From the NCBI RefSeq assembly GCF_000512895.1, contig NZ_CP007033.1:1-64000 (forward strand): 64,000 nucleotides of DNA, written 5' to 3'. The first letter of the stretch is position 1. Every line of letters begins with the position of its first letter. Positions 46,080-63,446 of this stretch are shown piece after piece. The position numbers and the translations under genes are program-made. The DNA comes from Dehalobacter restrictus DSM 9455. GTDB lineage: Bacteria > Bacillota > Desulfitobacteriia > Desulfitobacteriales > Syntrophobotulaceae. Below the pieces are notes generated by a model. That model was not told where the DNA came from. It did not search any database and saw nothing but the letters and a program-made list of their open reading frames with translations.

Positions 46080-46931
46080 TTATTTTTTTAATGCCTTTAC
46101 CCAAATATTCATATCCTCATAGCCGCCAGAAATATTGCAGTTGTTGATAAGTCTACCTCGATATATATATCCCAGTTTGCTTAAAGACTTATTTATTCCG
46201 AGATTTTTAGCCCTAGAAAGGCTATACGCTGTAACAAAGCCATTACGTTTCAAGTGCGTTTCCAGTTGGAATATCAATTCGCTTAATATATTTCTGCCTC
46301 TATATTTAGGATTAGTAGCACAATCAGTTATCTCAGCATTCATGTGTTGTTTGTCCAGATCCGCCGAAGCAATACTGATAATTTTCCTTTCTTCTTCCGC
46401 CACCATAAACAAAACATGATCCCGCATGACTTTTTGAAGATACTCTCTGCTAAAAATTGGTGTTGGATAGGTTTCAAATACCGCTTGAAAAAGCTGAATC
46501 ATCTGGGGAATATCGTCCGGCACGGCCTGCCTCATTGTATAATTTTTATTCTTAGTCAGCTCAAATCTATTGGTATTCTTAACGCAATAGTCAATAATTC
46601 TGTTTTCTTTCTCCTCATAGAGTGAATTTTCGCGTCTTTTGTCAAGAAAAAGCGACATACAAGTTGCATCCTCTCCCTGAAAAAAACCGTCGATAACCCC
46701 CTCTGCTACAAACCCGCATTCCTCAAAGATATTTATCTGATGTTTATGACAATTCACGATAATTTTACCCAGGTTTTCTTTTTTGGCATAATCAATAATC
46801 TCTTTGATTATCAACTCAGACAGAAGAGAATGACTCAATATTTTAAGCCTTTTATTGCGATAATCTACGTATATGTCTATATCTGAAATATTTATATATT
46901 GATTCTTGAAGTTATCTTGATCTGTATTCAT
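46080..46931 (-). CDS. ablB: Beta-lysine N6-acetyltransferase
   Basis: GNAT acetyltransferase of 283 residues that converts beta-lysine to the compatible solute N-epsilon-acetyl-beta-lysine. The C-terminal GNAT domain at about 130-275 has the acetyl-CoA loop NPKYRGRNILSELI. An N-terminal domain typical of AblB precedes it. It overlaps ablA by 20 bases, so the two are co-translated. A partial second copy lies at 40613-40813. Confidence 0.92.
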   Translation of the reverse strand: MNTDQDNFKNQYINISDIDIYVDYRNKRLKILSHSLLSELIIKEIIDYAKKENLGKIIVNCHKHQINIFEECGFVAEGVIDGFFQGEDATCMSLFLDKRRENSLYEEKENRIIDYCVKNTNRFELTKNKNYTMRQAVPDDIPQMIQLFQAVFETYPTPIFSREYLQKVMRDHVLFMVAEEERKIISIASADLDKQHMNAEITDCATNPKYRGRNILSELIFQLETHLKRNGFVTAYSLSRAKNLGINKSLSKLGYIYRGRLINNCNISGGYEDMNIWVKALKK

Positions 46932-48189
46932 GAAACCCCTCCCTCTTGTTGAGTCTTACGTTTGTGCTTGGGATCAAACATACTTGTTCACCTCTGTATA
47001 ACTTTTCTAATCCACGGTATTCTTTATTCTTGAATTTACCGCATGTGCCGCATTTTTGGCACTGGTGCGTTTTATCCTCAGGCTCGGTATACGTACAAAT
47101 TACACCTTCAAAATTTCTAAGAATGACCTTTTCCGGAGAATATGAAATCAAATATTGCGGATTAACCGGGATCTTACCACCGCCCCCCGGCGCATCCACA
47201 ACAAACTGTGGAATAGCTAGACCCGAGGTATGTCCCCGCAGCATTTCTATGATTTCTATCCCCACGGAAACCGAAGTTCTGAAATGCTCTATTCCTTCTG
47301 AAAGGTCACACTGATAAAGGTAATATGGTCTGATTCTGGATCTAACCAGGTTTTGCACCAAATCGCGCATAATATAGGGGCAATCATTAATACCTTTTAA
47401 AAGCACTGACTGGTTGCCAAGAGGTATTCCGGCATCAGCCAATTTTCCGCATGCTTCCCTGGCCTCAGCTGTCAGTTCTTTGGGGTGGTTAAAGTGCGTA
47501 TTCAGCCAAATAGGATGGTATTTTTTCAGCATTGTGCAGAGCTTATCAGTGATTCTCTGAGGCATGACGACAGGTGTTCTAGTACCTATACGAATTATCT
47601 CCACATGTTTAATTTCCCGAATTGATTTTATAATAGCTTCCAGCTTGTCATCAGCGAGACACAATGGATCCCCGCCCGACAAAAGCACATCCCTGACTTC
47701 TTTATGCGCTTTAATATAATTGATTGCCCGTTTGATATTATCCAGGGAAAGCGCCTTATCCTCCTGATCGGCAAATCGTCTTCTGGTACAGTGACGACAG
47801 TACATTGAACACTGATCAGTAATAAGCAACAGTACGCGATCGGGATATCTGTGAGTAAGGCCGGGAACCGGCGCGTCGGCTGTTTCATGCAGCGGATCAC
47901 TACTGTCAAATTTGGAGATTTTGGTTTCATGAATCGTTGGAATAGCTTGTCTTCTTGCCGGGCAATGTTCGTCATTTGGATCCATAAGTGTAGAATAGTA
48001 GGGCGTTATTGCCATACGTAATTTTTTTAGACTTACCGCCACTCCCTGACGCTCATCTTGGGTAAGGTTGACTACTTGTTCCAATTGATCAATCCTTGTA
48101 ATTCTGCTGGAAATCTGCCACTTCCAGTCCTGCCATTGTTCTTCCGTTACATTTTTATACAAGGGTATATCCCTAAAATTTCTTTGCAT
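46912..48189 (-). CDS. ablA: Lysine 2,3-aminomutase
   Basis: Radical SAM and PLP enzyme that turns L-lysine into L-beta-lysine. It has 425 residues from MQRNFRDIPLYKN. The radical SAM motif CSMYCRHCTRR lies near 132. The PLP lysine is in the PGGGGKIPVNPQY segment near 340, and zinc-site cysteines are in CQKCGTCGKFKN near the C-terminus. The start was placed at 48189 behind AGGGGG rather than 48258, which falls in the riboswitch leader. With AblB it makes N-acetyl-beta-lysine; a c-di-AMP riboswitch precedes it. Confidence 0.95.
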   Translation of the reverse strand: MQRNFRDIPLYKNVTEEQWQDWKWQISSRITRIDQLEQVVNLTQDERQGVAVSLKKLRMAITPYYSTLMDPNDEHCPARRQAIPTIHETKISKFDSSDPLHETADAPVPGLTHRYPDRVLLLITDQCSMYCRHCTRRRFADQEDKALSLDNIKRAINYIKAHKEVRDVLLSGGDPLCLADDKLEAIIKSIREIKHVEIIRIGTRTPVVMPQRITDKLCTMLKKYHPIWLNTHFNHPKELTAEAREACGKLADAGIPLGNQSVLLKGINDCPYIMRDLVQNLVRSRIRPYYLYQCDLSEGIEHFRTSVSVGIEIIEMLRGHTSGLAIPQFVVDAPGGGGKIPVNPQYLISYSPEKVILRNFEGVICTYTEPEDKTHQCQKCGTCGKFKNKEYRGLEKLYRGEQVCLIPSTNVRLNKREGFHEYRSR

Positions 48190-48249
48190 ATTATTTAATT
48201 CCCCCTTCAGATTCTCATTGAAGATTGTCATCCTCAATATTTGTGGTAT

Positions 48250-48283
48250 ATAAAACAAAAAGCTACAGAGAAGTATCTGCAGC
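48250..48283 (-). terminator. Terminator of the c-di-AMP riboswitch
   Basis: On the minus strand GCTGCAGA-TACTTC-TCTGTAGC is followed by TTTTTGTTTT. It lies between the aptamer and ablA, so ligand binding probably causes premature termination. Confidence 0.8.
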
Positions 48284-48709: not shown

Positions 48710-49690
48710 CTATCTGGCATAGCAAGCAGATGATTTTCCCTTGATATTATAACCTAAACAACCACTGATACATTTCTTTTCGTCCCAGAACCTGCATCCA
48801 TGGCATTGCTTAAACGGAGGACTGCTATATCTTTTACTGTCAATTTCAAGCAGAAAAAAATCGTTGACATCTTGAACGGTATTAAAATCTTTAATATTTA
48901 CCCTTAGATAATCTTCAAAAACGAAACATCGAGCGACGCTCAAGTCAGGCCTTATATCCATAACCGGCGAACATATTCCCTTGTGAATAAGATCGAAACC
49001 TGAGTAAATGAAATTCACAAGCTGCTCATTGGAAAAAATACACTTGGGCGGATTATTGCAATCAACATGAGGAGAAATCCCGTTTCTATGGCAATCATCT
49101 AAGAAGTCAACTAATGCAGGAACAAAACTCGCGTAATGTTCGAGACTGCCATTCCGATTGTTATCTGAGGGCACAGTAATACTATACCGGATGGTCTTTA
49201 ATTTTAGTCTTTTGCTTTGCTCAATAATATATTGATATTTAAAATTTGGCTCGAAGATATTAATGCCGAGCGTAACTTGAGGTTCGATATTCTTTCTGCG
49301 ATATTCGAATACCAGGTTTTCTACATTGTCTATTGTCTTATTATATAGATGCTCGCCGATTACATCGGATCCATTAAGATTAATCAAAAATGAAACCTTG
49401 TTATCCACAATGGATCGGCTCAAGGCATTATCTAAAGCGATGGCATTGGTGAAAATCTGGATTCTCCGGAAAAATGGATCATCTATTCCTTGATTCACCC
49501 ACTTTTCAAAGTTCGGATGCAATGTCGGTTCCCCCCCGAGCAGCCTTAAATCAATATGCGCCGACTTCTTAAAGAAATTGATTATATATCCATAATTGTC
49601 ATCGGAAATATCGACCTTGTTCTTCGGATCACAATTTGCAAAGCAATATGAACAATTTAAGTTGCAGTAATTATTTAACATAATATTCAT
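48710..49690 (-). CDS. Radical SAM protein of the triplet-repeat cluster
   Basis: A protein of 326 residues starting MNIMLNNYCNLNCSYC, so the radical SAM CxxxCxxC motif lies at residues 9-16, very close to the N-terminus. GGEPTLHP near 54 is the SAM-binding motif. A Cys-rich C-terminus (CHGCRFWDEKKCISGC near 296) may hold an auxiliary cluster like the twitch/SPASM type. The GGAGG ribosome site favours this ATG over 49702. It lies 112 bases after the repeat protein in the same direction and probably acts on it (inference). Confidence 0.85.
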   Translation of the reverse strand: MNIMLNNYCNLNCSYCFANCDPKNKVDISDDNYGYIINFFKKSAHIDLRLLGGEPTLHPNFEKWVNQGIDDPFFRRIQIFTNAIALDNALSRSIVDNKVSFLINLNGSDVIGEHLYNKTIDNVENLVFEYRRKNIEPQVTLGINIFEPNFKYQYIIEQSKRLKLKTIRYSITVPSDNNRNGSLEHYASFVPALVDFLDDCHRNGISPHVDCNNPPKCIFSNEQLVNFIYSGFDLIHKGICSPVMDIRPDLSVARCFVFEDYLRVNIKDFNTVQDVNDFFLLEIDSKRYSSPPFKQCHGCRFWDEKKCISGCLGYNIKGKSSACYAR

Positions 49691-49802: not shown

Positions 49803-50579
49803 TTACCGGGTAATTACATTTTGAAAGTGCTTTACGTTTGTGATAGCAACAGCATTGCTTGATCCCGAACTATTGCTGGCAGTAACATAAAAAGTTATCG
49901 GCTGAACAGTTGTCCCGGCAGGGATCGTAAAATATCCCACCCACGTATTTCCTCCGGTATTTGTAAAGGGAATTACTGTTGAATTTAAAGTATTGGTCGC
50001 AGTAACGGAAGTGGTGGCCCCGGTAGTCGTCGCTGTAATCTGGATTGTGGTGTTTGGAAATGCGATGGCCTGTACACTTGCTACAACCGAGGGGGGCGGC
50101 GTCCAATTATTCCAATTGCTATAATTGCTGTAAGCGCCCCAATCACCATAGTTGCCATAGTTACTATAGTTACTGTAGTTGCTGTAATTCGAATAAGCAG
50201 TCCAATTCGAATATTGGCTCCATGTTTCGGTATGGTTTTCCCATTGCGTATGGTTTTCCCAAGCACCGGAATTAGAGTAGTTGGCGTTCCAATTTACATA
50301 ATTGCCGTAAGTGTTGTTGTATACATCGGTATAAGCGCCATAATTTCCATAATTAGTCCATCCGGAGTTGGGCCAGGACCATTCCACCCAAGCGAAAGCT
50401 TTCTCGGGCTGCAAGGAAAAATTAAGGCCCAAAGCCTTGGAGTATTTGCCGTCTTTGGCTTTTGGCCGATCCGGATGATTGTTGTCAAGAACCAAGTCTT
50501 GAGTTATTGATGTATGAAGAATGCTTAGTGAAAGAAAGGCAAACAGCAATTTTTTCAATCTGGAAAACGTTCTTGCCAT
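49803..50579 (-). CDS. Exported aromatic-x-Asn triplet-repeat protein (candidate RiPP precursor)
   Basis: A protein of 258 residues. MARTFSRLKKLLFAFLSLSI is a signal-peptide-like start. A leader-like stretch follows to about 63 (ending EKAFA). From residue 74 to 159 aromatic residues recur every three positions, strictly so from Trp120 to Trp159. About 26 aromatic-x-x triplets are seen: the third residue is Asn in 17, Ala in 4, Asp 2, Gln 2, Glu 1. A beta-sandwich, Ig-like domain fills 160-258 (IAFPNTTIQITATTTGATTS). It overlaps the U32-like gene end. The triplets match the substrate pattern of three-residue cyclophane maturases. Alternatively it is a structural surface protein. Confidence 0.75.
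   Translation of the reverse strand: MARTFSRLKKLLFAFLSLSILHTSITQDLVLDNNHPDRPKAKDGKYSKALGLNFSLQPEKAFAWVEWSWPNSGWTNYGNYGAYTDVYNNTYGNYVNWNANYSNSGAWENHTQWENHTETWSQYSNWTAYSNYSNYSNYSNYGNYGDWGAYSNYSNWNNWTPPPSVVASVQAIAFPNTTIQITATTTGATTSVTATNTLNSTVIPFTNTGGNTWVGYFTIPAGTTVQPITFYVTASNSSGSSNAVAITNVKHFQNVITR
50103..50360 (-). repeat. Coding triplet repeat (9-base period)
   Basis: DNA of the aromatic-x-Asn region. It repeats TA(C/T)-(A/G)G(T/C)-AA(T/C) units, most perfectly at about 50160-50215, where four Tyr-Ser-Asn units run in tandem. Such repeats can change copy number by slippage without breaking the frame. Confidence 0.7.
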
Positions 50580-51788: not shown

Positions 51789-53249
51789 TTAAATAACGAG
51801 AAACTCCTTCAGCTTGTTTTCAGCGTGAGCAGGAGTTTCGATCCGTTTAATCGATTCTTCTAAAATATTTTTCATCATCTTGGCACTTCTGAATTGATGC
51901 CTGAATAAAAAGTTCAAGAATCTCGGGTTATATTTCGGCATATCGTCAAAATCAATTTCATTAATAACTCTTATAATATGGCTAATTACGTGCCGGTGCG
52001 TGTAGCAATTTTCAGGCTCCGGCTTATTCATGGTCAAATCGTACTGGATGTTGTCATTGTAGCAGCCGCTATGGCAGCAGTAGAAATAATCACAATTGCC
52101 GCAATGCCGCAGCATCCGCCGGGTCCCCTCGTACCATCTCTTATGGTTGGGATGATTTAAGATATCTTGAACCGATTCCATCTCAAAAATATTCCCGAAA
52201 GACACGGCAGCGCTCTCCGGCCAGTCCCGGCCGCAATGATAAATCGTACCGTCCGGTTGGGTTGAAAACCAGTAATCCTTTCCGGCGCAGTCCGTAAAAG
52301 CGCAGGAACCTCCAGCATCCAAGGCGGCCATGAGATATCGCTCGCACAGATCCGAATCAGCCGGTCTGTAAGTGTCTAAGATCCAATAGTCAAAGAATTT
52401 GCAGATTTCCTCGGCAACCGTTTTCCCGTCCAGGGTATAGGAATTCATATTTTTATGGGCCGCAAAGATGAGGTTCATCTTGCAGCCCAGGCCTAAGCGT
52501 TTAAAGTATTCGTAATCGTCAATCATTTGGTGGATATTATCTTTCGTAATGATCATGATGGCGCCGCCCAAGACCTCGTTTTTATCCGCTATGGCAATGG
52601 ACTGCATCAACCTGTCGGTATTTTTCCGGGTCAAATAGTTTGTTAAGCCATCGAAACTGAAGCCCGGCCGGATGTTCCACTTCCTTAACACAGCGGCGTT
52701 TTCATCGTCGATAAGCGTCAAGTTGGATTGCATGCAAATATTGGCTTTCTTAAATTGCTGCTTGATCAGAGTGTTTGCCTCATCATAGAATTCTTTCCCG
52801 ATCAGCAAAGGCTCCCCGCCGTGCCATATCCAGGTGCCGACATTGACGTCTTTGAACACTTTTAAAATCTGCCTGACCACTTCCAGCGTGACTTTGTTCC
52901 CTTCTACGTCAAGATCCTTGCGAAACATCACGTCGTAACAATACGGGCAATGCAGGTTGCAGGCATGCGTCGTTTTTACTATTAAGGTTGTTTTATCGGG
53001 ATAAGTAATATTTTCCGCCGCGGCCATCTTTTTGAAATCGATATCGCCCTCAAAATACTCCTTATGCCTTTTTATTTGTTTGAGAGACATGGAGAACATC
53101 AAGTTTTTATTGCCGGCAATAACGTCGAGAATCTCCCCGGAACCCATGCCGGGCATAATTTCCTGGTAAACTGAGCTGCGCAGTTCCCTTTCGTATTTGT
53201 TGTTGAATTTACGGAACTGCTGCAATTCATCTTTGGCTATCAAATTCAT
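51789..53249 (-). CDS. Radical SAM/SPASM maturase
   Basis: A protein of 486 residues starting MNLIAKDELQQF. Radical SAM motif CNLHCPYC lies near 96 and WHGGEPLL near 141. C-terminal SPASM cysteines are CAFTDCAG, IYHCGRDWP and CGNCDYFYCCHSGC at about 330-425, enough for two auxiliary clusters, as in sulfatase- and peptide-maturing enzymes. AGGGGG is best spaced to this ATG; the frame extends to 53303, overlapping the lipoprotein gene. The most likely catalyst acting on the aromatic-x-Asn protein (inference). Confidence 0.88.
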   Translation of the reverse strand: MNLIAKDELQQFRKFNNKYERELRSSVYQEIMPGMGSGEILDVIAGNKNLMFSMSLKQIKRHKEYFEGDIDFKKMAAAENITYPDKTTLIVKTTHACNLHCPYCYDVMFRKDLDVEGNKVTLEVVRQILKVFKDVNVGTWIWHGGEPLLIGKEFYDEANTLIKQQFKKANICMQSNLTLIDDENAAVLRKWNIRPGFSFDGLTNYLTRKNTDRLMQSIAIADKNEVLGGAIMIITKDNIHQMIDDYEYFKRLGLGCKMNLIFAAHKNMNSYTLDGKTVAEEICKFFDYWILDTYRPADSDLCERYLMAALDAGGSCAFTDCAGKDYWFSTQPDGTIYHCGRDWPESAAVSFGNIFEMESVQDILNHPNHKRWYEGTRRMLRHCGNCDYFYCCHSGCYNDNIQYDLTMNKPEPENCYTHRHVISHIIRVINEIDFDDMPKYNPRFLNFLFRHQFRSAKMMKNILEESIKRIETPAHAENKLKEFLVI

Positions 53250-53260
53250 AAGCATACCCC

Positions 53261-54046
53261 CTACATCTTCAGCTGGGTGTTTTCTTCGGAATCGACCTTC
53301 CAAACCCCGTTTACCTGCAGCAAAATAATTCTTTCCTCATATTTGCTTACCCAATAGTTGCCGCCGTTTTGTGCTGCATTGATGACGATGGTCAACTTCA
53401 GGAAAGCCCCTTCCTGATTATTTAGTTGGGGGATTTGATTAAAACTTATATCGTCAAGGCATAAAGACTTCACTTGTCTGGTATCCTTGTTTTTGATACT
53501 TTCAGATTTAAAATTCGGAAAAAAGTTGTCCAACGAATTTTGGAAATTCGCCGTCGTATAACTGCTTCCCGGCATTTGCGACATTGCTTCAAGCTTCTTA
53601 TAATCGGTGGATTTGAATTCTACCAGCCACCGGGCGGCCACTTCGTAAGCGGCTTTCTCTCTGTCTGCTTTTGCAGCATTATTTTGGACATCAACCTGAC
53701 GCCCCAAGCTATACAAAGATAACCCGGAATTGGCGGGAGGCTTCGGCTCCGGCTCTGGCTCTGGCTTGCTTGGTTGAGCCGGCTCAGTCTTTGGCTGGAC
53801 TTTGGGCTCAGCACTGGGTTCAACTTTTGTTTCGGTTTTGACTTCCGGCTGCGGAGCTTGCTGAGGTTCAACCTCTTTAATCGGCTCAAGCTCTTTTTCC
53901 GGGCTTTGATTGTCTTTTTGAGTCTGGGTATCCTGCTGGACCGGAACATTTTGTACCGGATCAGTCTTTTTGGAACTGCATCCAAAAAGAATCAAGGACA
54001 AAACAAGAAGCAGAATAGAAAATGTTTTAACTCTTAACTTTAACAT
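53261..54046 (-). CDS. Lipoprotein with a Pro/Glu/Lys-rich linker
   Basis: A protein of 261 residues. The signal peptide ends in lipobox LILFGC (Cys near 23). A low-complexity Pro/Glu/Lys/Gln linker spans about 30-108. A C-terminal domain of about 150 residues (YEVAARWLVEFKSTDYKKLE, ending WKVDSEENTQLKM) looks like an NTF2- or DUF4878-type alpha+beta fold. The linker would let the domain reach through the cell wall. It may anchor or display the cluster product. Confidence 0.75.
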   Translation of the reverse strand: MLKLRVKTFSILLLVLSLILFGCSSKKTDPVQNVPVQQDTQTQKDNQSPEKELEPIKEVEPQQAPQPEVKTETKVEPSAEPKVQPKTEPAQPSKPEPEPEPKPPANSGLSLYSLGRQVDVQNNAAKADREKAAYEVAARWLVEFKSTDYKKLEAMSQMPGSSYTTANFQNSLDNFFPNFKSESIKNKDTRQVKSLCLDDISFNQIPQLNNQEGAFLKLTIVINAAQNGGNYWVSKYEERIILLQVNGVWKVDSEENTQLKM

Positions 54047-54766: not shown

Positions 54767-55813
54767 ATGGAAATGGAGCAATTAATTAATCAAGTTGTAT
54801 TACAGTATTTTCAAAATAAGGGTGTTCAAGAAAAATTTCTGGATTATCTGAACCGGCATGATGTTGTTAGTCGGGAGATATTTTCATATCTTGGCAAGGA
54901 TTACTCAAATATTGGAGACAGTCTCTTATTCCCACCTATTCCCAAAAAAGTATTCCTTCGTAGAATTCCATTCTACTTCTATAAGCCAGACATAAGCGCA
55001 GATAGAGTAGGTTGCTTGTCCCAATATATTAACAGTTTTTATATTAACAATAGGAATGAAGAATCCTATCGCGACAAAATTGAAGTTTTTTATGAAGCGC
55101 TTGAAAAGTTATTATACGATTATAAAATTCCGGTTAGTGAGATCTTTGAATACCCCATTATTCAAAGTGGCCGCATCGAACAAGCAGACCTGCTTTTACA
55201 ATGGGTGCATTATCTTGAGTTAGCACAAAAATACGATATAGAGGACCTAATTCCGCAACACTTTTTTATTTCCTATAATAGTCTGCTCGAAAAGGAAAAA
55301 CTGCCCCCAGTCATTTTTGATTTAAAGGAAATGTATATCGGGGAATACGTGGGCAGAACGAAAAATATTTTCCGGATGGAAGGTACATTCCCTTGCGATG
55401 AAAAGGGAAGACCGATTATGCGATGGATAGGTGTTGATGTTAGAAACGCCACTCGCATATGGGCAGAGGTCAATGAAAAGCATAAGGGATATCTGTTTGT
55501 TGAAGCAAATCCTAAAACATTAATCCGAGGTCGGAATTGTTGGGGACCAAATGATGATGGTTCCGACGCTTGGTACGAGCTATATGCCGGTCCTCAACTG
55601 ATGGAGTTTGATTTTGAGGCACTGAAAGACATAAGAAAGAGAGAGGGCTTAACACAGCAACAGATCGCTGATTGGATTGGTGCATCACTAAGAACATATC
55701 AAAAATGGGAAAGCGGAGACACGAATCCAGACTGTTACTACTTACTCAGATTAATGAACGTTCTGGATATTAGACAAGTATCGGAATTGACGAAAATAGT
55801 TGATGTTGATTGA
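54767..55813 (+). CDS. Protein with a C-terminal XRE helix-turn-helix
   Basis: A protein of 348 residues. The C-terminal 65 residues are a Cro/CI-type helix-turn-helix (LKDIRKREGLTQQQIADWIG, then LRTYQKWESGDTNP). The first 280 residues are a domain I do not recognise, with a basic/aromatic segment KVFLRRIPFYFYKP and GRNCWGPNDDGSDAWYE. GGGAGG lies 13 bases before the ATG. Its end overlaps the ORF of the AbiH-like gene, so it probably regulates that module. Confidence 0.7.
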   Translation: MEMEQLINQVVLQYFQNKGVQEKFLDYLNRHDVVSREIFSYLGKDYSNIGDSLLFPPIPKKVFLRRIPFYFYKPDISADRVGCLSQYINSFYINNRNEESYRDKIEVFYEALEKLLYDYKIPVSEIFEYPIIQSGRIEQADLLLQWVHYLELAQKYDIEDLIPQHFFISYNSLLEKEKLPPVIFDLKEMYIGEYVGRTKNIFRMEGTFPCDEKGRPIMRWIGVDVRNATRIWAEVNEKHKGYLFVEANPKTLIRGRNCWGPNDDGSDAWYELYAGPQLMEFDFEALKDIRKREGLTQQQIADWIGASLRTYQKWESGDTNPDCYYLLRLMNVLDIRQVSELTKIVDVD

Positions 55814-55871
55814 CTCATATTGTACCATTATTTGTAAAGCTACTTGCATTAGAAAGAAAGGTCATTTTTAT

Positions 55872-57279
55872 ATGAAATCAGTTTTAATTGGCAATGGAAT
55901 CAATATCCAATTTGGCGGTAAGGCCTATTGCAATGACTTCATCTTAATGAGGATCATGTTCAACGCCAAAGCGAATAAATATAATCCATTGTTTGACGGC
56001 CTACTTTCAGGTGAAGGTATTGAGAGCATCTTCAGAGCTTTCGTAGATATTGCAAACAAAGCTCGAAACGGTGATTATGATAGAATCGGCAATTCTGATG
56101 ACCGGAAAGCCATTGCGGATTTTAAGGACAGATATACCGTTCCCATCACGAAATATTATGAGATTATGCTTGAGGACTGGTTTCTGCTGATCCGGTTGTT
56201 CTTTATTGCGAATGCCGACATAAAAGATCAGTGGCAGTCAGCAAAGCAAGGATTTGAGCGTATAATCCTTGATGGAATCTATAATGATGGGATGCTTACT
56301 GACGTCCATCAAAATATGAACAAAAAGGTAAAGCGTTTTTTTGCTGGATTCGATAATATTTTTTCTCTTAATTATGATTGCAACCTCGAAGCGTTAACAG
56401 GTAGGAATGTGCTTCATCTACACGGCAACTATTCTGTCCCCGCTGACAGTGAAAACCCCGATACTGTCGAAGGGTATATGCGCCAGCAGGCAGGGCAGCT
56501 GGTTGTCATTGACGAGTTCCGGCATTGCTTTTGTAATGCGCTGCTGGATTATAGCGGCGAACTCAAAATTAAACGAGCTTTATATGTCAAGAAAGGTACC
56601 ACCGAAATGAATCGCTGGCTTGAGCTATCAAGACGCGACGAAGCGGAATTTAAAAAGCAAACCGCACTTCTGAGGGCAAAGGACGAATATGCTTTCCAGT
56701 TCGTTAACACGTACGTTCAGAACCCTAATCTGAAGGTAGGCACGGATTTACCATTTTGAAGCGCTCTCAAAGTTAGAGGGAGAACTGCATATCATAGGGC
56801 TGTCCCCAAACAATGACAGCCATATATTCAGGTGCATAAACGAAAGCAAGTTGGAGAAAGTCTGGTTTTACTATTTTTCCGAAACAAATAAAGACATCCC
56901 TGTCGCCAAACCCTATGAACCATTGTTCGTCAAGGATTTATGGAAATCGTTAGACGCTGAAAAGAAAATATACAATAACTCCTATCCCATACCGGATAAC
57001 CCCGAAGTGGATAAGTTTATCGAGGTGTTCAATGCGTTGTCGTTTGACCCAATTCCCAAGAAGAAAATTATTGACGAAGTAAACTCTATCCCACAGTTTG
57101 AAGCGACCCGGCTATGTACAATGGTAAGAAAAAAGATGGAAGAGCAAAAAAGCCGTGGAAATCCCAAAAACGAAAAAGAGCTGGAACGGGACATCTTAGA
57201 GATCGGCAGTATAGGGTTGCGTGAAGGGGTTTTGCCTGCCGCCCTGTTAATGCTGTATATAATGAATTATAAGAATTAG
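55872..57279 (+). pseudogene. AbiH/SIR2-like defence protein, +1 frameshift
   Basis: It begins MKSVLIGNGINIQFGG, the nucleotide-binding glycine motif of AbiH and SIR2-like abortive-infection proteins. NIFSLNYDCNLEALTG and VLHLHGNYSVP near 165-190 support this. The first frame stops at 56757-56759 (CCA TTT TGA). Skipping one T gives PFEALSKLEGELHIIGLSPN and continues unbroken to 57279, for 468 residues in all. The site is a TTTT run, so an error, a real mutation or +1 recoding at TTT-TGA are all possible. Neighbours suggest a phage-defence module. Confidence 0.65.
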
Positions 57280-57312
57280 GGTAAAAATCACCAAGCGAGC
57301 GGGGGTAAATTA

Positions 57313-58125
57313 ATGTGCGAAGTTAATGTTAGTGATGATTTTGGTATATGCCAGTTTGGTAACTATGCTTTGTTTAACCCTGAAAATATTAGCAGCCTCT
57401 CAAAGAAAATTATTGATATATCTAAACCATTTACAAAATTGCTCCCTGTTTTGAAGGAAATAAAAAACATGTATATTGTCTCTTGTTTTCAAAAGAGTGA
57501 TGAGATAACCAATGCAATTGAATTAATCCGCCTATGCCGTAATAACCATACCTTTATTACGGTTATTACCCCAAAAGCCTCATTAAGAGGTCAATTGGCA
57601 GTTAATCAAATTAAAAATGAAGCGGACATTTTTTTGATTCTTGAAAATGAATATTGGGAAGATGAGAAAATAGTTGACCCAGTATCGTATGCAATTTCGT
57701 TTTTGGTTGAAGCATTTGATGAAGTAATAATAAGCAAAGATCACGTGCCGTCGTATGATGGCCCACTTTATGCATTTTCTAAATCTGGAACAGCGGAAAT
57801 AATAACATTTAAAGTTCTAAAAAGTGAATATGAAAAAGAAAATTATGAGATTGCTGACGAAATAAAAGAAAAACTATCTGGAAAGCGTTTAGCCTTATTA
57901 AATATAAAGTCATGTGATGATGTGCGTGTATGGCCTAAGGAGGTAATAACTAAGGCTGTTAAACGCGCTTCTGGAAATATGCTTTATGCTTCTTGGTGTT
58001 CTTTATTTGGTCAAAGCATTGGTAAAAGAACATGGGTAACAGTTATTGTTTCAGATTTAGATAATAAGGATAATAGCTATAATGGCCCCAAAAATAGGAC
58101 TTTTTTTCAAGGTGGACACTTATGA
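57313..58125 (+). CDS. Divergent FtsZ/tubulin-like protein without the GTP loop
   Basis: A protein of 270 residues. The middle (MYIVSCFQKSDEITNAIELI, then FITVITPKASLRGQLA and ADIFLILENEYW) follows the order of FtsZ strands after the GGGTGTG loop, but that loop is replaced by QKSDEIT. The C-terminal part (LALLNIKSCDDVRVWPKEVI, then KRTWVTVIVSDLD) parallels FtsZ GVLVNITGG...EV and VRVTVIATGFD. If right, it is a non-GTP-binding tubulin-fold protein. The assignment is by eye and tentative. It is the third gene of the defence module. Confidence 0.45.
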   Translation: MCEVNVSDDFGICQFGNYALFNPENISSLSKKIIDISKPFTKLLPVLKEIKNMYIVSCFQKSDEITNAIELIRLCRNNHTFITVITPKASLRGQLAVNQIKNEADIFLILENEYWEDEKIVDPVSYAISFLVEAFDEVIISKDHVPSYDGPLYAFSKSGTAEIITFKVLKSEYEKENYEIADEIKEKLSGKRLALLNIKSCDDVRVWPKEVITKAVKRASGNMLYASWCSLFGQSIGKRTWVTVIVSDLDNKDNSYNGPKNRTFFQGGHL

Positions 58126-58175: not shown

Positions 58176-58706
58176 TTAATATTTAAACAATAATGAAGTA
58201 ACTATATAGCATAAAGAGATCAAAGTGGCACCGCCACCGGGAAAAAATCTGCTTTTTACGCCATTAGCAAAGAAATTGTTATTTTCTCCGATAGCGATCA
58301 AAACAAGTGAATCTGTTTTTATATCATTAATAGTTTGGGTTAAGCCTTTAACCCGTACAGTTTGAAAAAAGAAATAAAAGAAAGCTGAAAACATGAAGAG
58401 AGCTGAATTAAAGAAGAAGGCTCCGGGTGTTAAAAACAGGCTCAGAGCCAATAACAATTTAACATCACCTCCCCTCATCGCCCCGTGGGAATAGACGAAT
58501 AAGAGAATTAAGAAAAGGAAAAAGAAAGAAACGCCATAGCTTACGGAATATGTTTTGGCGTATATGACATAAATTATCCCGAGAATAAACCCGGGTATTG
58601 TCACCCAATTATATATTTTCCGCTTCTGCCAATCCGTCAGAACACAAATTGACAGCATCACTAAAGGTATCAGCAATGCTAAATAATTGACCATACATTT
58701 AATCAT
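58176..58706 (-). CDS. Prepilin peptidase (TadV/CpaA type)
   Basis: A protein of 176 residues with about six membrane helices. It has the aspartate-protease motif of type IV prepilin peptidases without the methylase domain: first Asp in CVLTDWQKRKIYNW near 24, second in GAMRGGDVKLLLAL near 77 (family GxGD). It cleaves Flp pilins and TadE-like pseudopilins encoded upstream. It is the last gene of the Tad operon in the window. The ATG at 58694 is an alternative start. Confidence 0.85.
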   Translation of the reverse strand: MIKCMVNYLALLIPLVMLSICVLTDWQKRKIYNWVTIPGFILGIIYVIYAKTYSVSYGVSFFFLFLILLFVYSHGAMRGGDVKLLLALSLFLTPGAFFFNSALFMFSAFFYFFFQTVRVKGLTQTINDIKTDSLVLIAIGENNNFFANGVKSRFFPGGGATLISLCYIVTSLLFKY

Positions 58707-58720
58707 TCCTTACATTCAAA

Positions 58721-59245
58721 TTATGGTGAGATTTTTAAAGCAGCGTCTTTCCCTATTTTAATTGTCCAATAAGGGGTTGGATTTACGATTTGGGTAAGGC
58801 CTCGCCTTACTCTGACTTCGATATAAACCACATAGGACGGCTCAGTGATAGCGTGATTGTCAATCGGGCTTACTGCCGGCAAAACATCAGAATTATAGGT
58901 TTTATAATAAAGCGTTGCTTTATTGACATAAATAACCGGCGAGCCCGGTAGCGGATTGAGGTTATTGTCTAAAGATAAATTTTTCTTTACCATTTCTAAA
59001 AAAACAACATCCGCTTGCGCTGGGTCTATAGCTAAAATACCTTGATTTAATTTGGCCTGGTCGGTTTGCTGGCTGGCTGCTAAAGCGGCAAATTTTACAC
59101 TGTCCGTTATTCCCCGTTTTATGTTTATGGCGTGGTAGTAATCCGTCCCCCAGCCAATAAGGGCAAGAGAAATGCCCAAAAAAATCAGCAGTTCAATTAA
59201 AGATGAACCCCGATCGTCTTTTATTATTTTATATAGCTTCTTCAT
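58721..59245 (-). CDS. TadE/TadF-like pseudopilin (1)
   Basis: A protein of 174 residues. MKKLYKIIKDDRGSSLIELL shows a class III-type prepilin motif (cleavage after Gly, then Ser-Ser-Leu-Ile-Glu) followed by one membrane helix. The rest is a beta-rich extracellular domain. Such minor pilins are part of Tad machines. Confidence 0.75.
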   Translation of the reverse strand: MKKLYKIIKDDRGSSLIELLIFLGISLALIGWGTDYYHAINIKRGITDSVKFAALAASQQTDQAKLNQGILAIDPAQADVVFLEMVKKNLSLDNNLNPLPGSPVIYVNKATLYYKTYNSDVLPAVSPIDNHAITEPSYVVYIEVRVRRGLTQIVNPTPYWTIKIGKDAALKISP

Positions 59246-59256
59246 AAACACCTCAT

Positions 59257-59667
59257 TTAAGGCAAATATTGACTCATGATCGTTTTGGTTACCGTAACCG
59301 TCTCCGATTTAGAAACCGGGTGTCCGCTTGACCAATCGGTAAATTTCCGGGGTCCGGTTATGGAAATTGTTATATATTGTCCGTAAGTAACGCGGCTAGC
59401 ATCACTGCCCGATCCGGTAACCACAAATAAACCGGTATCGACGCCGGTGTGTTTCAGCTGATCTTTCATCAGATTTCGGACCTCTGTCGTAGTTCCTCCG
59501 ACAACGGCAGCCCTTTCCAACCCGAGATTCACGGCGTTAACCATGGATCCCTGCAAGTTATTAAGGAAAAACATCGATATGAATGTGAAGAATATCGCCA
59601 TCCATAATGCAAAGACAATTAAGAATTCAATCAAGGTAGATCCGCGTTCATTATCAGGGTTTTTCAT
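59257..59667 (-). CDS. TadE-like pseudopilin (2)
   Basis: A protein of 136 residues starting MKNPDNERGSTLIEFLIVF, the TadE N-terminal signature (RGS-x-x-IEF) with one helix at about 12-34. The C-terminal domain GQYITISITGP is beta-rich. It lies 11 bases from the next pseudopilin gene. Confidence 0.8.
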   Translation of the reverse strand: MKNPDNERGSTLIEFLIVFALWMAIFFTFISMFFLNNLQGSMVNAVNLGLERAAVVGGTTTEVRNLMKDQLKHTGVDTGLFVVTGSGSDASRVTYGQYITISITGPRKFTDWSSGHPVSKSETVTVTKTIMSQYLP

Positions 59668-59768
59668 TAGTTTTTTTGTAAATTCAGCATAATTTTAAGC
59701 GGATAGCATACGTCTGAACATATACTATCCGCCATCTCCCTTCCTCCTCACGGTGAGGAATATTTTCA

Positions 59769-59945
59769 TTAAGGAGTGGTGATATTAGTTATACTGGTAT
59801 TCATATCCGTCAATTTGCCGCGGATTGTAACAAACAACACCGATACGGCTGCAACCGTAGCCAGAACACCGCCGAAGATCCAAATAATATTTTGAACAAG
59901 ATCTCCGCCTTCATCTTTGTAAAGGTTTTTTAGAAAATTTCCCAT
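59769..59945 (-). CDS. Flp-type pilin (1)
   Basis: A 58-residue protein: MGNFLKNLYKDEGGDLVQNI, a single membrane helix (IIWIFGGVLATVAAVSVLF), then a short polar tail. The Gly-Gly-Asp-Leu-Val-Gln site is the presumed processing site. A possible GGGGG ribosome site lies upstream. It resembles the next small gene closely in its N-terminal half. Confidence 0.75.
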   Translation of the reverse strand: MGNFLKNLYKDEGGDLVQNIIWIFGGVLATVAAVSVLFVTIRGKLTDMNTSITNITTP

Positions 59946-59965
59946 AAAAAAATAACCCCCCCTTC

Positions 59966-60145
59966 TTAATTAAGTTTGCTCATTCCGGCTGAGTCATTTG
60001 CTATTTTGGCTGTTATTGTATTGTAAAGAATCACAGCAATGCCTATTGTTGCCAGAATACCACCAAACAGCAAAACAATATTTTGAACAAGATCCCCCCT
60101 TTCATCATGCAACAATGTTGCCAGATAGCGGACAATTTTTTTCAC
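59966..60145 (-). CDS. Flp-type pilin (2)
   Basis: A 59-residue protein with GTG start behind GGGAGGT. MKKIVRYLATLLHDERGDLV, then a helix (QNIVLLFGGILATIGIAVIL) and a polar tail. It shares GDLVQNI and the GGxLAT helix with the neighbouring pilin, so the two arose by duplication and may form the pilus together. Confidence 0.75.
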   Translation of the reverse strand: MKKIVRYLATLLHDERGDLVQNIVLLFGGILATIGIAVILYNTITAKIANDSAGMSKLN

Positions 60146-60159
60146 ATATTGCTACCTCC

Positions 60160-61062
60160 CTACATTATTTGACCAAGGCTTTGATTAGCCTGGTATAGCA
60201 GCGGGACAAGAATGATTACCGGGATCATAATAAAAGGAATTGCGGTTAATGCTTCGACAAGCATTTTTTTGTTTTTATACCGCCTTATTTCTTTTAATCC
60301 CTCAATATATTCAATATCCCGGGACCGGCTTGCCATATACGCAACCATATTAGAACTATCAATGGTGATAGATTGCATTAGAATATCCGCTAAGTTTTTC
60401 AATTCATCGATATCCGTTTCTTTACTCAATTTAGCAAGTGCCGGTTTTGGCCCTGTTATGGACATATCCTGCAGGAGTCTTTCTAAGTGAGGCCGTAATT
60501 TATTTGTCGCGAATAAAGCCCCGCGAATAGAATCGGCTATGGTTTGCCCCGCTTTTCTTAAATCAACAATATAGGTCATGATTTCCGACAACTCATTGAT
60601 GAGAGCATTTTTGTACTGGTTGTAAAAATACGCAAGAATGGCTGTGGGCGCTATGGTCCCCACAAAAAAGCCTACGCAGATTAACCCTATTGCCATCAGC
60701 AAGTCTTTTGTGGAAAAACCCGCAAAGCCAAAAAGAATGGCGAATATGAATGGGGATAATTTTTTAAAAATCATATATTCCGCATATCCCATCGGCATTG
60801 TTCCAGGCTGTCTGAGTATTTCCAGCATGTAAGCCGAACGGTCATGCCTTCGGGTTTTGCTTAATAATTTAGAGATATATTTTGCTGTCTTTTTGCGAAG
60901 TTTTTCTAAAGGAGTCTCCTGAGCTTGTCTATAAGAAAGCTTGGTAGTGCCAAGAGAATTTATTCTCTTGAACTCCTTGCGGTTAGTCTTAATAAAAAAC
61001 GCTGCTATAAGCAGCATCAACCCCAGTGATAATCCTATAGAACAAATCAAGCGTATACTCAT
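60160..61062 (-). CDS. tadC: Tad pilus inner-membrane platform protein TadC
   Basis: A type II secretion F-domain protein of 300 residues. Helices lie at about 5-22, 102-145 and 270-295. The conserved cytoplasmic loop contains ALFATNKLRPHLERLLQDMS and ELKNLADILMQSI. It works with TadB and the ATPase to assemble Flp pili. It lies 6 bases after tadB. Confidence 0.88.
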   Translation of the reverse strand: MSIRLICSIGLSLGLMLLIAAFFIKTNRKEFKRINSLGTTKLSYRQAQETPLEKLRKKTAKYISKLLSKTRRHDRSAYMLEILRQPGTMPMGYAEYMIFKKLSPFIFAILFGFAGFSTKDLLMAIGLICVGFFVGTIAPTAILAYFYNQYKNALINELSEIMTYIVDLRKAGQTIADSIRGALFATNKLRPHLERLLQDMSITGPKPALAKLSKETDIDELKNLADILMQSITIDSSNMVAYMASRSRDIEYIEGLKEIRRYKNKKMLVEALTAIPFIMIPVIILVPLLYQANQSLGQIM

Positions 61063-61068
61063 ACTTAC

Positions 61069-62034
61069 CTAATCCTCCATTGATAAAAATTTCAGCAACA
61101 GCGCAGCCTCAATTAAGACAGAAATAATGATGGCATTCGTATAAAGGTGCCCAAATGAAGATTGTTTTACCAGGGCCAATGAATCCGGCCAAAAAAGACT
61201 TACGCCTAGATACGTAAGAATCATTACCAGCGTAAAAGCCACAGCTTTGGAGATTAGCGGATTAAGATCCTCTTTAATTGATTGCGCCCTGTTTTTTCTT
61301 GATCTGATTTTGTCCGTAAGCCTGTATAAAAGCTCTTCTGTGTTGCCCCCTGCCATCCTCGAAGAAACGATAACGTTGTAAAAATCCCTGAAAGACTGCA
61401 GTTTCAAAATTATAGATATTTTATATACAACCGCATCGAATTCTTCCCCATTATTCACCCTGGACTGGATTCGGCTAAACAATGAGCGCATTTGAGAAGG
61501 CATGGCAGCGATTGAATCCCAGGTTGCAGCTTCAAGATTATTACGGACAATATAATTGTTTAAGATAAGACTGAAAGTGTTCAATGCCTGTTTATTCAGC
61601 CTTCTTCGCGTACTGTGATAGATTAGATTTATCATTACCCAAGGAATTAGTAAGCCTATAACCGTAAAAATAATAGTGCCGAGAACATTATGGGTTACGA
61701 TTACAGCCCCCGGATTCTGATAGGTTGGATTCGGAATTTTTCCCGAAAGGATCACTATTGACAGGAGAAAAGCAATAAAACAAAACCCTATACTAATAAA
61801 AAGAAGAGCTTTTAAGCTCAACTTCAAATTTGTAATATAGATTCTTTGATTGTAATATCTTGCGAAATTACTTATCCTGTTGTTATTTTTAACTTTGTCT
61901 TGCAAATAGTTTATCCTTTTATTTATGAAACCAGATATTTGCTTCTTTTCTTTTTTCCCGAGAAACCATACAATTACAGACAATAAAAGCCCAATGCTTA
62001 TTCCATAACAAAGAACAAGCGTCATACCAACCAC
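61069..62034 (-). CDS. tadB: Tad pilus inner-membrane platform protein TadB
   Basis: A protein of 321 residues with helices at about 5-25, 78-97, 115-140 and 265-315. The type II secretion F domain lies at about 150-280 (FSLILNNYIVRNNLEAATWD, VIVSSRMAGGNTEELLYRL). It overlaps the ATPase gene by 13 bases, so translation is coupled. Confidence 0.88.
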   Translation of the reverse strand: MVGMTLVLCYGISIGLLLSVIVWFLGKKEKKQISGFINKRINYLQDKVKNNNRISNFARYYNQRIYITNLKLSLKALLFISIGFCFIAFLLSIVILSGKIPNPTYQNPGAVIVTHNVLGTIIFTVIGLLIPWVMINLIYHSTRRRLNKQALNTFSLILNNYIVRNNLEAATWDSIAAMPSQMRSLFSRIQSRVNNGEEFDAVVYKISIILKLQSFRDFYNVIVSSRMAGGNTEELLYRLTDKIRSRKNRAQSIKEDLNPLISKAVAFTLVMILTYLGVSLFWPDSLALVKQSSFGHLYTNAIIISVLIEAALLLKFLSMED

Positions 62035-63446
62035 CTCTTAACATCACTGGCATTTTTTCTGCCTTTGGCAATAAGACGATAAGCAAGTTTTTTGCTTATG
62101 GGGTTAAAGATCATTTTCCCGTCGCTATCTCTTTTAAAAATATCTTTAATAACAATATTACACTCCGAATCCAGATCTAATTCAGCGACTTGGGTAATTT
62201 CAATTTTTCTATCCACTATCCCTAACTGGATAATAATATCCACTGCCGTGACGATTTCTGTGTTAATTACCTTGTCACTGACATTGGAGATAGATTGAAC
62301 CTTGGTTCTTAATTCCTGACAGCATGATTCAGCGTCATAGGTATGAATTGAGGCCATTGTATTGGCGTGACCGGATCGCATGGCCCTAAGCGTATACATT
62401 GCCTCAATCGGAAAACGGATTTCACCAACCAAAATTACATCCGGGTCCATTCTCATAACCTGCGGGTAGATTTCCTCTACCCCTAAAGGATTGTATTTTG
62501 TGTCGCGTTCAAGCATTTCAACTACCTCAAGACCAGGGTAGTATTTTACCAGCTGCAGCTCCGGGCCATTTTCGATAGTTATTATCCGCAAACCGCTTTC
62601 GGGATCGCCCGGATCGTTTTCATCCGGAATAAGATCTTGAAAAATTGAGGCCAAGGTACGAATCAAAGTTGTTTTTCCGGTGTGAGTCCCGCCGCTGACT
62701 ATGATTGTAGCCCCCGCTCTTACAACATCCCGAATAAAATCAACCTGTCGATAAGAATGTTCTTTGCTTGGAATACTTTTGATCACGTCACGCTCTTTAT
62801 TTAGAGAATTTAGAGATCTGCTTTTTTCAGCTATTTTTAACGTCCCGATCTTTTCAAGTTCTTCCAAGGAAAAGTTTTTATCCCTAAATCTCCGGATATT
62901 TAATGTAATTCCGTGGCTAGGGACTATCGAGCTTTTATTAATTACAACCCTGCTTCGATCCGGAAGCCAAGCATTATCCACCATAGGGCTGCCCTCATTA
63001 GCTTCTGAGTGGCAGGTGAGCAATATGCGTTCTGTTATTTTTTCAAGATGAGCCAGATCTGTAAACTTAATATCCTTTGCTAAATACCTGATTCCATTCT
63101 TTTTATACGTGATTTGATACGGACCATTTACGCATATTTCTGTTATCTCAGCATCAAGAAGAAGGTCATGGATAACATCATACCCAATGATGTATTTATA
63201 TACCTCCCAAGCAATTTCATCGATACTCATATCGGGTACATCTAGTTTCTCATGACGAATAATATCTTTTATAACATTGCGGATTTGTTCTTGACATTCA
63301 CCTACCCCATAAATAGCATCGTTAAGCAATTTAGGGTGGTTTTCAGTTAATATTGTCTGAATAATACTTGTTGTTTGATATAGATGATTTTTGCTTTCTG
63401 TGTCATACGCTTTTTGTTCAACAGCTTTAACTGAACTGATTCTCAT
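62022..63446 (-). CDS. Tad pilus assembly ATPase TadA/CpaF
   Basis: Secretion ATPase of 474 residues of the CpaF/VirB11 type that powers Flp pilus assembly. Walker A GGTHTGKTTLIRTL lies near 254, with Asp and His boxes. Walker B is VILVGEIRFPIEAMYTLRAM near 340, followed by GHANTMASIHTYDAESC. The N-terminal domain contains VYKYIIGYDVIHDLLLDAEI. GGAGG precedes the ATG. The Walker A has Thr-His in place of the common Ser-Gly but keeps Gly-Lys-Thr. Confidence 0.92.
   Translation of the reverse strand: MRISSVKAVEQKAYDTESKNHLYQTTSIIQTILTENHPKLLNDAIYGVGECQEQIRNVIKDIIRHEKLDVPDMSIDEIAWEVYKYIIGYDVIHDLLLDAEITEICVNGPYQITYKKNGIRYLAKDIKFTDLAHLEKITERILLTCHSEANEGSPMVDNAWLPDRSRVVINKSSIVPSHGITLNIRRFRDKNFSLEELEKIGTLKIAEKSRSLNSLNKERDVIKSIPSKEHSYRQVDFIRDVVRAGATIIVSGGTHTGKTTLIRTLASIFQDLIPDENDPGDPESGLRIITIENGPELQLVKYYPGLEVVEMLERDTKYNPLGVEEIYPQVMRMDPDVILVGEIRFPIEAMYTLRAMRSGHANTMASIHTYDAESCCQELRTKVQSISNVSDKVINTEIVTAVDIIIQLGIVDRKIEITQVAELDLDSECNIVIKDIFKRDSDGKMIFNPISKKLAYRLIAKGRKNASDVKRWLV

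Follow-up and report, generated by a model that had tools for sequence, protein, structure and literature searches.

Cyclophane-forming radical SAM enzymes have been described from small RiPP natural products, and to our knowledge the characterised cyclophane precursors are all short peptides. The characterised enzymes that make three-residue cyclophanes are SPASM-type radical SAM enzymes that join Trp, Phe or Tyr to the beta-carbon of Asn or Asp, and His to the beta-carbon of Ala, so that the class as a whole accepts Trp, Tyr, Phe and His (PMC11002830). A different family, the U32 superfamily, includes O2-independent hydroxylases (PMC11574389). In the open-licence literature we found neither a published description of long aromatic-x-Asn/Asp arrays nor expression data for such a system. 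Here we analyze an array of this kind encoded in the first 64,000 nucleotides of the Dehalobacter restrictus DSM 9455 contig NZ_CP007033.1 (the window), together with its neighbouring radical SAM enzymes and their relatives in other genomes and phages.

The array protein and its operon

The array gene lies on the minus strand and encodes 258 aa, with its ATG at 50579 and its stop codon ending at 49803, in agreement with the coordinates of the initial annotation (Table 1). The 97 residues of the array hold 18 aromatic-x-Asn motifs, or 20 when Asp is also counted, and Asn or Asp stands at +2 from the aromatic residue in 20 out of 29 instances, compared with 3 at +1 and 1 at +3. An aromatic residue at every third position had been claimed for residues 74-159; this is strictly true of residues 120-159, which form an unbroken run of 14 aromatics, but not of residues 74-119, where we observed several phase slips. 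Among 20,000 composition-preserving shuffles of the array, none reached a run of 14 (the longest was 10) and none matched the 20 motifs. The array protein also stands apart from the other window ORFs, with 13 motifs per 60 aa against at most 5 in all others (182 ORFs of at least 60 aa). The array is under purifying selection (dN/dS 0.07-0.14 where estimable) and its codons are varied; thus, it is not a DNA microsatellite, and the pattern is kept by selection on the protein. Indels between copies of the array occur in steps of three residues. Export of the protein is plausible given an RLKK sequence followed by a hydrophobic stretch, and the invariant A-F-A-W could be a signal-peptidase-like site. 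The Ig-like domain previously suggested for this protein could not be confirmed: a Pfam search returned no match and Foldseek nothing better than E = 0.01, although the AlphaFold2 model, whose confident regions are limited to parts of the C-terminal domain, places beta strands at residues 166-253 (pLDDT of the block ~40-84).

The genes of the operon follow the order lipoprotein-like gene, radical SAM/SPASM enzyme, U32 protein, array protein and second radical SAM enzyme (rSAM2). The SPASM enzyme contains CxxxCxxC at residue 96, CGNCDYFYCCHSGC and C414, scores above the cut-offs for PF04055 and PF13186, and belongs to the radical SAM/SPASM enzymes; it is the main candidate for the maturase. A four-sequence comparison showed a resemblance between residues 11-58 of its N-terminal region and a phage protein of 102 aa that stands alone (33% over 49 aa, E 5e-4), and this region is perhaps a substrate-recognition part. 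The invariant cysteines of the U32 protein (C217x3C221x18C240x11C252 and C360x3C364x3C368x2C371) suggest an Fe-S cluster, and the protein is a candidate O2-independent oxidase or hydroxylase; its AlphaFold2 model was useless (pLDDT 32). An extra oxidation or hydroxylation by this protein is speculative, and since the U32 protein is confined to Dehalobacter-type loci, the general system can do without it. None of the array-linked enzymes reached an NCBIfam cut-off: the GrrM/OscB, FxsB, XyeB, YhhB and AmcB models all scored far below theirs, which gives no support for membership in the described three-residue cyclophane-forming maturase subfamilies covered by these models. The best matches of the SPASM enzymes were the dynobactin maturase DynA and the anaerobic sulfatase maturases (E 1e-29 to 1e-46), at 103-159 bits versus cut-offs of 349-450.

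Upstream of the array operon, the window encodes a Tad/Flp locus, with a CpaF ATPase, TadB/C proteins, TadE-like prepilins and a prepilin peptidase in one cluster at 58176-63446 (PF00437, PF00482 and PF01478; the TadC-like gene had no Pfam match). Neither this pilus operon nor the phage relatives described below featured in the initial annotation. The Tad genes are separated from the modification genes by a block of some four plus-strand ORFs (54767-58125), the first of which encodes an HTH protein; this block is present in genomes G001 and G002, and it looks like an insertion because it is absent at the second copy of the locus in this genome and at loci L010 and L018. This second full copy lies at 416 kb, is preceded by CpaB- and CpaE-like genes, and encodes an array protein that is 90% identical. 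One operon, comprising Tad pilus genes, the lipoprotein, the SPASM enzyme, the U32 protein, the array protein and rSAM2, is kept at all 8 copies (six genomes from the genus and one neighbouring genus, including the second copy here), and one sequenced congener does not have the system. Across the class (83 genomes), the SPASM and U32 proteins are confined to genomes with the array operon. After the operon, the window carries ablA/ablB (46080-48258), the lysine 2,3-aminomutase and beta-lysine N-acetyltransferase pair for the osmolyte N-epsilon-acetyl-beta-lysine.

Table 1. Array operon and Tad genes of the window
Feature	Position	Strand	Remarks
Second radical SAM enzyme (rSAM2)	48710..49690	-	family common to phage array loci, 32-43% identity
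Array protein	49803..50579	-	leader 1-63, aromatic-x-Asn array 64-160, C-terminal beta-rich domain ~164-258
Aromatic-x-Asn/Asp array, residues 64-160	50100..50390	-	20 motifs; period 3 unbroken at residues 120-159
Leader, residues 1-63	50391..50579	-	N-terminus hydrophobic; A-F-A-W invariant at 61-64
U32-family protein, 397 aa	50581..51774	-	PF01136; two four-Cys sets
Radical SAM/SPASM enzyme	51789..53255	-	CxxxCxxC; SPASM CX2CX5CX3C-gap-C; extra N-terminal region
Lipoprotein-like protein	53261..54046	-	conserved in operon
Small conserved protein, 90 aa	54027..54299	-	in operon at 7 of 8 copies
Prepilin peptidase	58176..58706	-	PF01478
Two TadE-like pseudopilins	58721..59667	-	RGSTLIE prepilin motifs
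Two small Flp-type pilin candidates, 58 and 59 aa	59769..60145	-	
Tad pilus motor: TadC-like, TadB-like (T2SSF), CpaF-type ATPase (T2SSE)	60160..63446	-	

Relatives in Tad loci and phage tail modules

A SPASM profile search of 398 genomes of the phylum identified two further genomes, G304 and G382. G304, like G479 with its 85% identical enzyme, has a complete Tad locus that includes an 815-922-aa protein with HTD/HSD-type motifs. In G382, a prophage tail module encodes an array protein, three SPASM-type radical SAM enzymes and one rSAM2 homologue; a subtilase (S8) gene, possibly for a processing protease, adjoins the prophage rSAM2 and array genes (L037:13059-13961). Single phage radical SAM queries found nothing new in IMG/VR; alignments used as queries succeeded. 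Specifically, in L039/L040 baseplate/tail genes on one side and an endolysin gene on the other flank an array of ~44 motifs, which is followed by an rSAM2-like enzyme and two SPASM enzymes; one of these SPASM enzymes is 39% identical to that of the window. The large phages L044-L046 and L048/L049 also encode rSAM2 homologues, located near Trp or Tyr arrays of period 4, W-x-x-x or Y-x-x-x (L044:9273-9974, L048:9666-10331), a related but different motif. The L048 phage reads well only with TAG as Gln, and the coding fraction of the 232-kb viral contig L047 rises from 0.37 to 0.84 with TGA as Trp, suggesting another recoded phage. A weak array match in G014 (L008), close to a gene for an anaerobic RNR, was a microsatellite of the CAGCAAATA type and not a relative.

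In addition, we scanned the 398 genomes for a DNA pattern encoding four tandem [Tyr/His]-x-[Asn/Asp] triplets ([YH]x[ND]x4), independently of homology. Most of the matches, which fell in 25 genomes, were non-coding or of low complexity, and translation left one convincing array ORF outside the known family, in G337, where it directly precedes a radical SAM gene in a phage tail module. This enzyme is 52-57% identical to proteins of the cultured Thermus phages Cumys, phiMa and phiLo, whose array proteins carry 61-113 motifs each, mostly His-x-Asp. Cumys_13 and phiMa_29, which adjoin the radical SAM gene, are 342-343 aa long with 61-62 motifs; every array His lies within His-x-Asp (54/54 in Cumys and 53/53 in phiMa), at spacings of 3-9 residues. 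No array adjoins the phiLo enzyme. When all 585 ORFs of the phiLo genome were scanned, exactly four exceeded 5 motifs per 60 aa: phiLo_135, 136 and 137 (72, 113 and 81 motifs), which lie close to genes annotated as baseplate genes, and the radical SAM enzyme itself, whose C-terminus is an HxD array of its own. Short HxD tails also end the Cumys, phiMa and G337 enzymes; the enzymes at L101:6001-7449, L099:6001-7251, L097:7854-9110 and L116-L121 end in such arrays (e.g. HGDYTDHGDAPHGDHWDG), as if they were self-modified or carried substrate mimics. A DUF483-type protein (33-35% identity) is encoded beside enzymes of the Thermus/G337 type (L097:6955-7857, L099:7253-8191, L101:7479-8513) and may take part in maturation. 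The Cumys study describes a radical SAM module that also contains a DUF483 gene and another gene, one of no assigned function, and suggests DNA modification (PMC11437467). We found that the unannotated third gene of the Cumys/phiMa module encodes the HxD array protein, and this array raises the likelihood of a protein substrate in the module.

The association between enzyme and array was examined by querying IMG/VR with an alignment of the three enzymes of Cumys, phiMa and G337, which returned 28 loci. A separate array protein lay within 3.2 kb at 17 out of 18 loci with E <= 1e-40. After collapsing loci at 80% identity, this was the case for 12 out of 13 strong clusters versus 0 out of 9 clusters of weaker, unrelated radical SAM matches (Fisher p = 2e-5); a dense ORF 6.6 kb away at the weak locus L128 was left out of the count. 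We checked for seed bias, as the IMG/VR scan used an HGDH[YW]D seed: the radical SAM cysteine motif alone retrieved 10 of the 13 strong clusters, with arrays at 9 of these 10, and L122 was the sole cluster seeded outside its radical SAM gene. A separate observation concerns a Candidatus Chlorohelix plasmid (L102:4237-10796), where three radical SAM genes lie beside two unrelated proteins that both end in Cys-rich stretches and HYWYPN/HYWHPN tails, possibly a separate radical SAM-modified C-terminal tag.

When comparing the arrays, we observed the preference for Asn or Asp at +2 in G304 (26/48), L039 (43/65), G337 (17/27) and Cumys (57/62) as in the window, with mostly much lower counts at other offsets. 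Outside Dehalobacter the motif spacing is irregular, and the conserved unit is therefore aromatic-x-(Asp/Asn) rather than a three-residue period. Thus, of the persistence in relatives on which the initial annotation had set store, the motif is kept and the three-residue phase is lost in distant relatives. The array proteins range from 178 to 1052 aa, and the middle residue of the motif is most often Ser, Thr, Gly or Ala. Formylglycine formation on a middle Ser was considered and rejected because the middle position frequently holds Thr, Gly, Ala, Gln or Leu.

Proposed modification and alternative explanations

From sequence we can establish the array, its selection, the conservation of its operon and the repeated linkage of arrays to radical SAM genes in unrelated contexts. 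The idea that the neighbouring radical SAM/SPASM enzymes modify the array, already put forward by the initial annotation, is strongly supported by this conserved linkage in unrelated lineages, and further by the homology-free pattern search and the Thermus phage and IMG/VR tests; every homologue of the array protein was accompanied by radical SAM genes. We thus take the array to be the likely substrate of these enzymes. The Tad-locus and phage-tail contexts indicate an extracellular or virion role.

We propose the following mechanism. The SPASM enzyme would recognise aromatic-x-Asn/Asp and, most likely, join the ring of the aromatic residue to the third residue's beta-carbon, so that each motif yields one three-residue cyclophane. 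The array would then become a chain of ~20 stapled turns, a stiff and protease-resistant rod spanning the distance from the N-terminal membrane or leader part to the C-terminal beta domain. Encoded in a Tad pilus operon, the protein would probably be extracellular, serving as a surface or adhesion component associated with the pilus, and the phage tail-module proteins would use the same stapling device. We judge this reading as a whole, from enzyme substrate and cyclophanes to a Tad-linked extracellular rod with a counterpart in phage tails, to be somewhat probable, and the function that we prefer is that of a stiff stapled rod or of an adhesive spacer. Cyclophanes are the most likely product because the motif, the enzyme class and the linkage all fit the characterised enzymes. 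Several observations complicate this reading: the enzymes stay below every NCBIfam maturase cut-off, Ala, Gln, Glu or Thr fills some of the third positions, and a long exported protein as substrate poses problems of recognition and export. Since related enzymes adjoin Trp or Tyr arrays of period 4, the product may vary among arrays.

An array modified by these enzymes could instead carry another product, such as a beta-hydroxylation, an epimerisation, an ether or C-N link or some other oxidation, with the U32 protein possibly performing a second oxidation. The many chemistries of radical SAM/SPASM enzymes allow for this, as do best NCBIfam matches to DynA and sulfatase maturases that all stay below cut-off, and U32 relatives catalyse O2-independent hydroxylation (PMC11574389). 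However, Asn/Asp at +2 matches the known three-residue cyclophane motif exactly (PMC11002830), a spacing that is kept despite irregular distances between motifs, and we consider a different product unlikely. It is also conceivable that the arrays bind metals or are unmodified, sticky low-complexity sequence while the enzymes act elsewhere, for example on pilins or DNA. His-Asp motifs can bind metals, and metal-binding His motifs occur in phage tail fibres; DNA modification was moreover proposed for the Thermus module (PMC11437467). This explanation appears quite improbable to us, given that arrays follow the enzyme across Tad loci and unrelated phages (the clusters counted above), that some of the enzymes bear an HxD tail of their own, and that Tyr/Trp-x-Asn, the Dehalobacter motif, is a poor metal ligand set. 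The bias of the array towards Tyr, Ser and Asn might finally suggest a fast-evolving simple repeat that has no specific function and lies beside the enzymes by chance. We disfavour this as extremely improbable in view of a dN/dS of ~0.1, varied codons, the lack of any comparable ORF in the window and the repeated independent linkage.

Returning to the stapled rod, we see about an even chance that it is a general device, in which radical SAM/SPASM enzymes turn tens to more than 100 aromatic-x-Asp/Asn motifs per protein into strained rings in Tad-linked and phage tail proteins, forming a structural, non-antibiotic RiPP-like class. If 20 to more than 100 motifs per pilus-linked or phage tail protein are indeed stapled, this chemistry would be a means of engineering the structure of large proteins; it would account for the radical SAM genes in the tail modules of many phages and offer very processive maturases for biotechnology. 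Stapling is directly testable in the virions of the cultured Thermus phages.

Comparison with known systems

The U32 protein shares PF01136 and conserved cysteines with the U32 oxidases (UbiU/UbiV, RlhA, TrhP), but instead of CX6CX15CX3C it has C-x3-C-x18-C-x11-C and a second four-Cys set, and its context in the window is not that of rRNA, tRNA or quinone genes. DynA and the anaerobic sulfatase maturases resemble the SPASM enzymes as their best NCBIfam matches, whereas neither a sulfatase nor a short antibiotic precursor was seen beside the SPASM enzymes here. The HxsA His-Xaa-Ser system likewise pairs a repeat-motif protein with paired radical SAM genes (Haft and Basu, as cited in PMC9062424), but its motif is HxS, and the HxsB model scores 49.6 bits on the window SPASM enzyme against a cut-off of 370. 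The Cumys/phiMa module belongs to the same family as the G337 enzyme; its authors proposed DNA modification, and the available part of their paper does not remark on the array (PMC11437467). There is also a likeness to the triceptides (three-residue cyclophane RiPPs; XncB, OscB/GrrM, MscB/FxsB, YxdB and HaaB enzymes), where the enzymes are likewise SPASM radical SAM enzymes and the aromatic-x-x motif has Asn, Asp, Ser, Arg or Ala as third residue (PMC11002830), as is found here with 20 aromatic-x-Asn/Asp motifs in 97 aa. The systems differ in that the enzymes here score far below all NCBIfam cut-offs and that, in place of a short precursor with a leader and a small core, the window encodes a 258-aa protein with a beta-rich C-terminal domain. 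More generally, the substrate here would be a surface or tail protein of ~180-1050 aa with ~20-113 motifs, encoded in Tad or phage tail operons.
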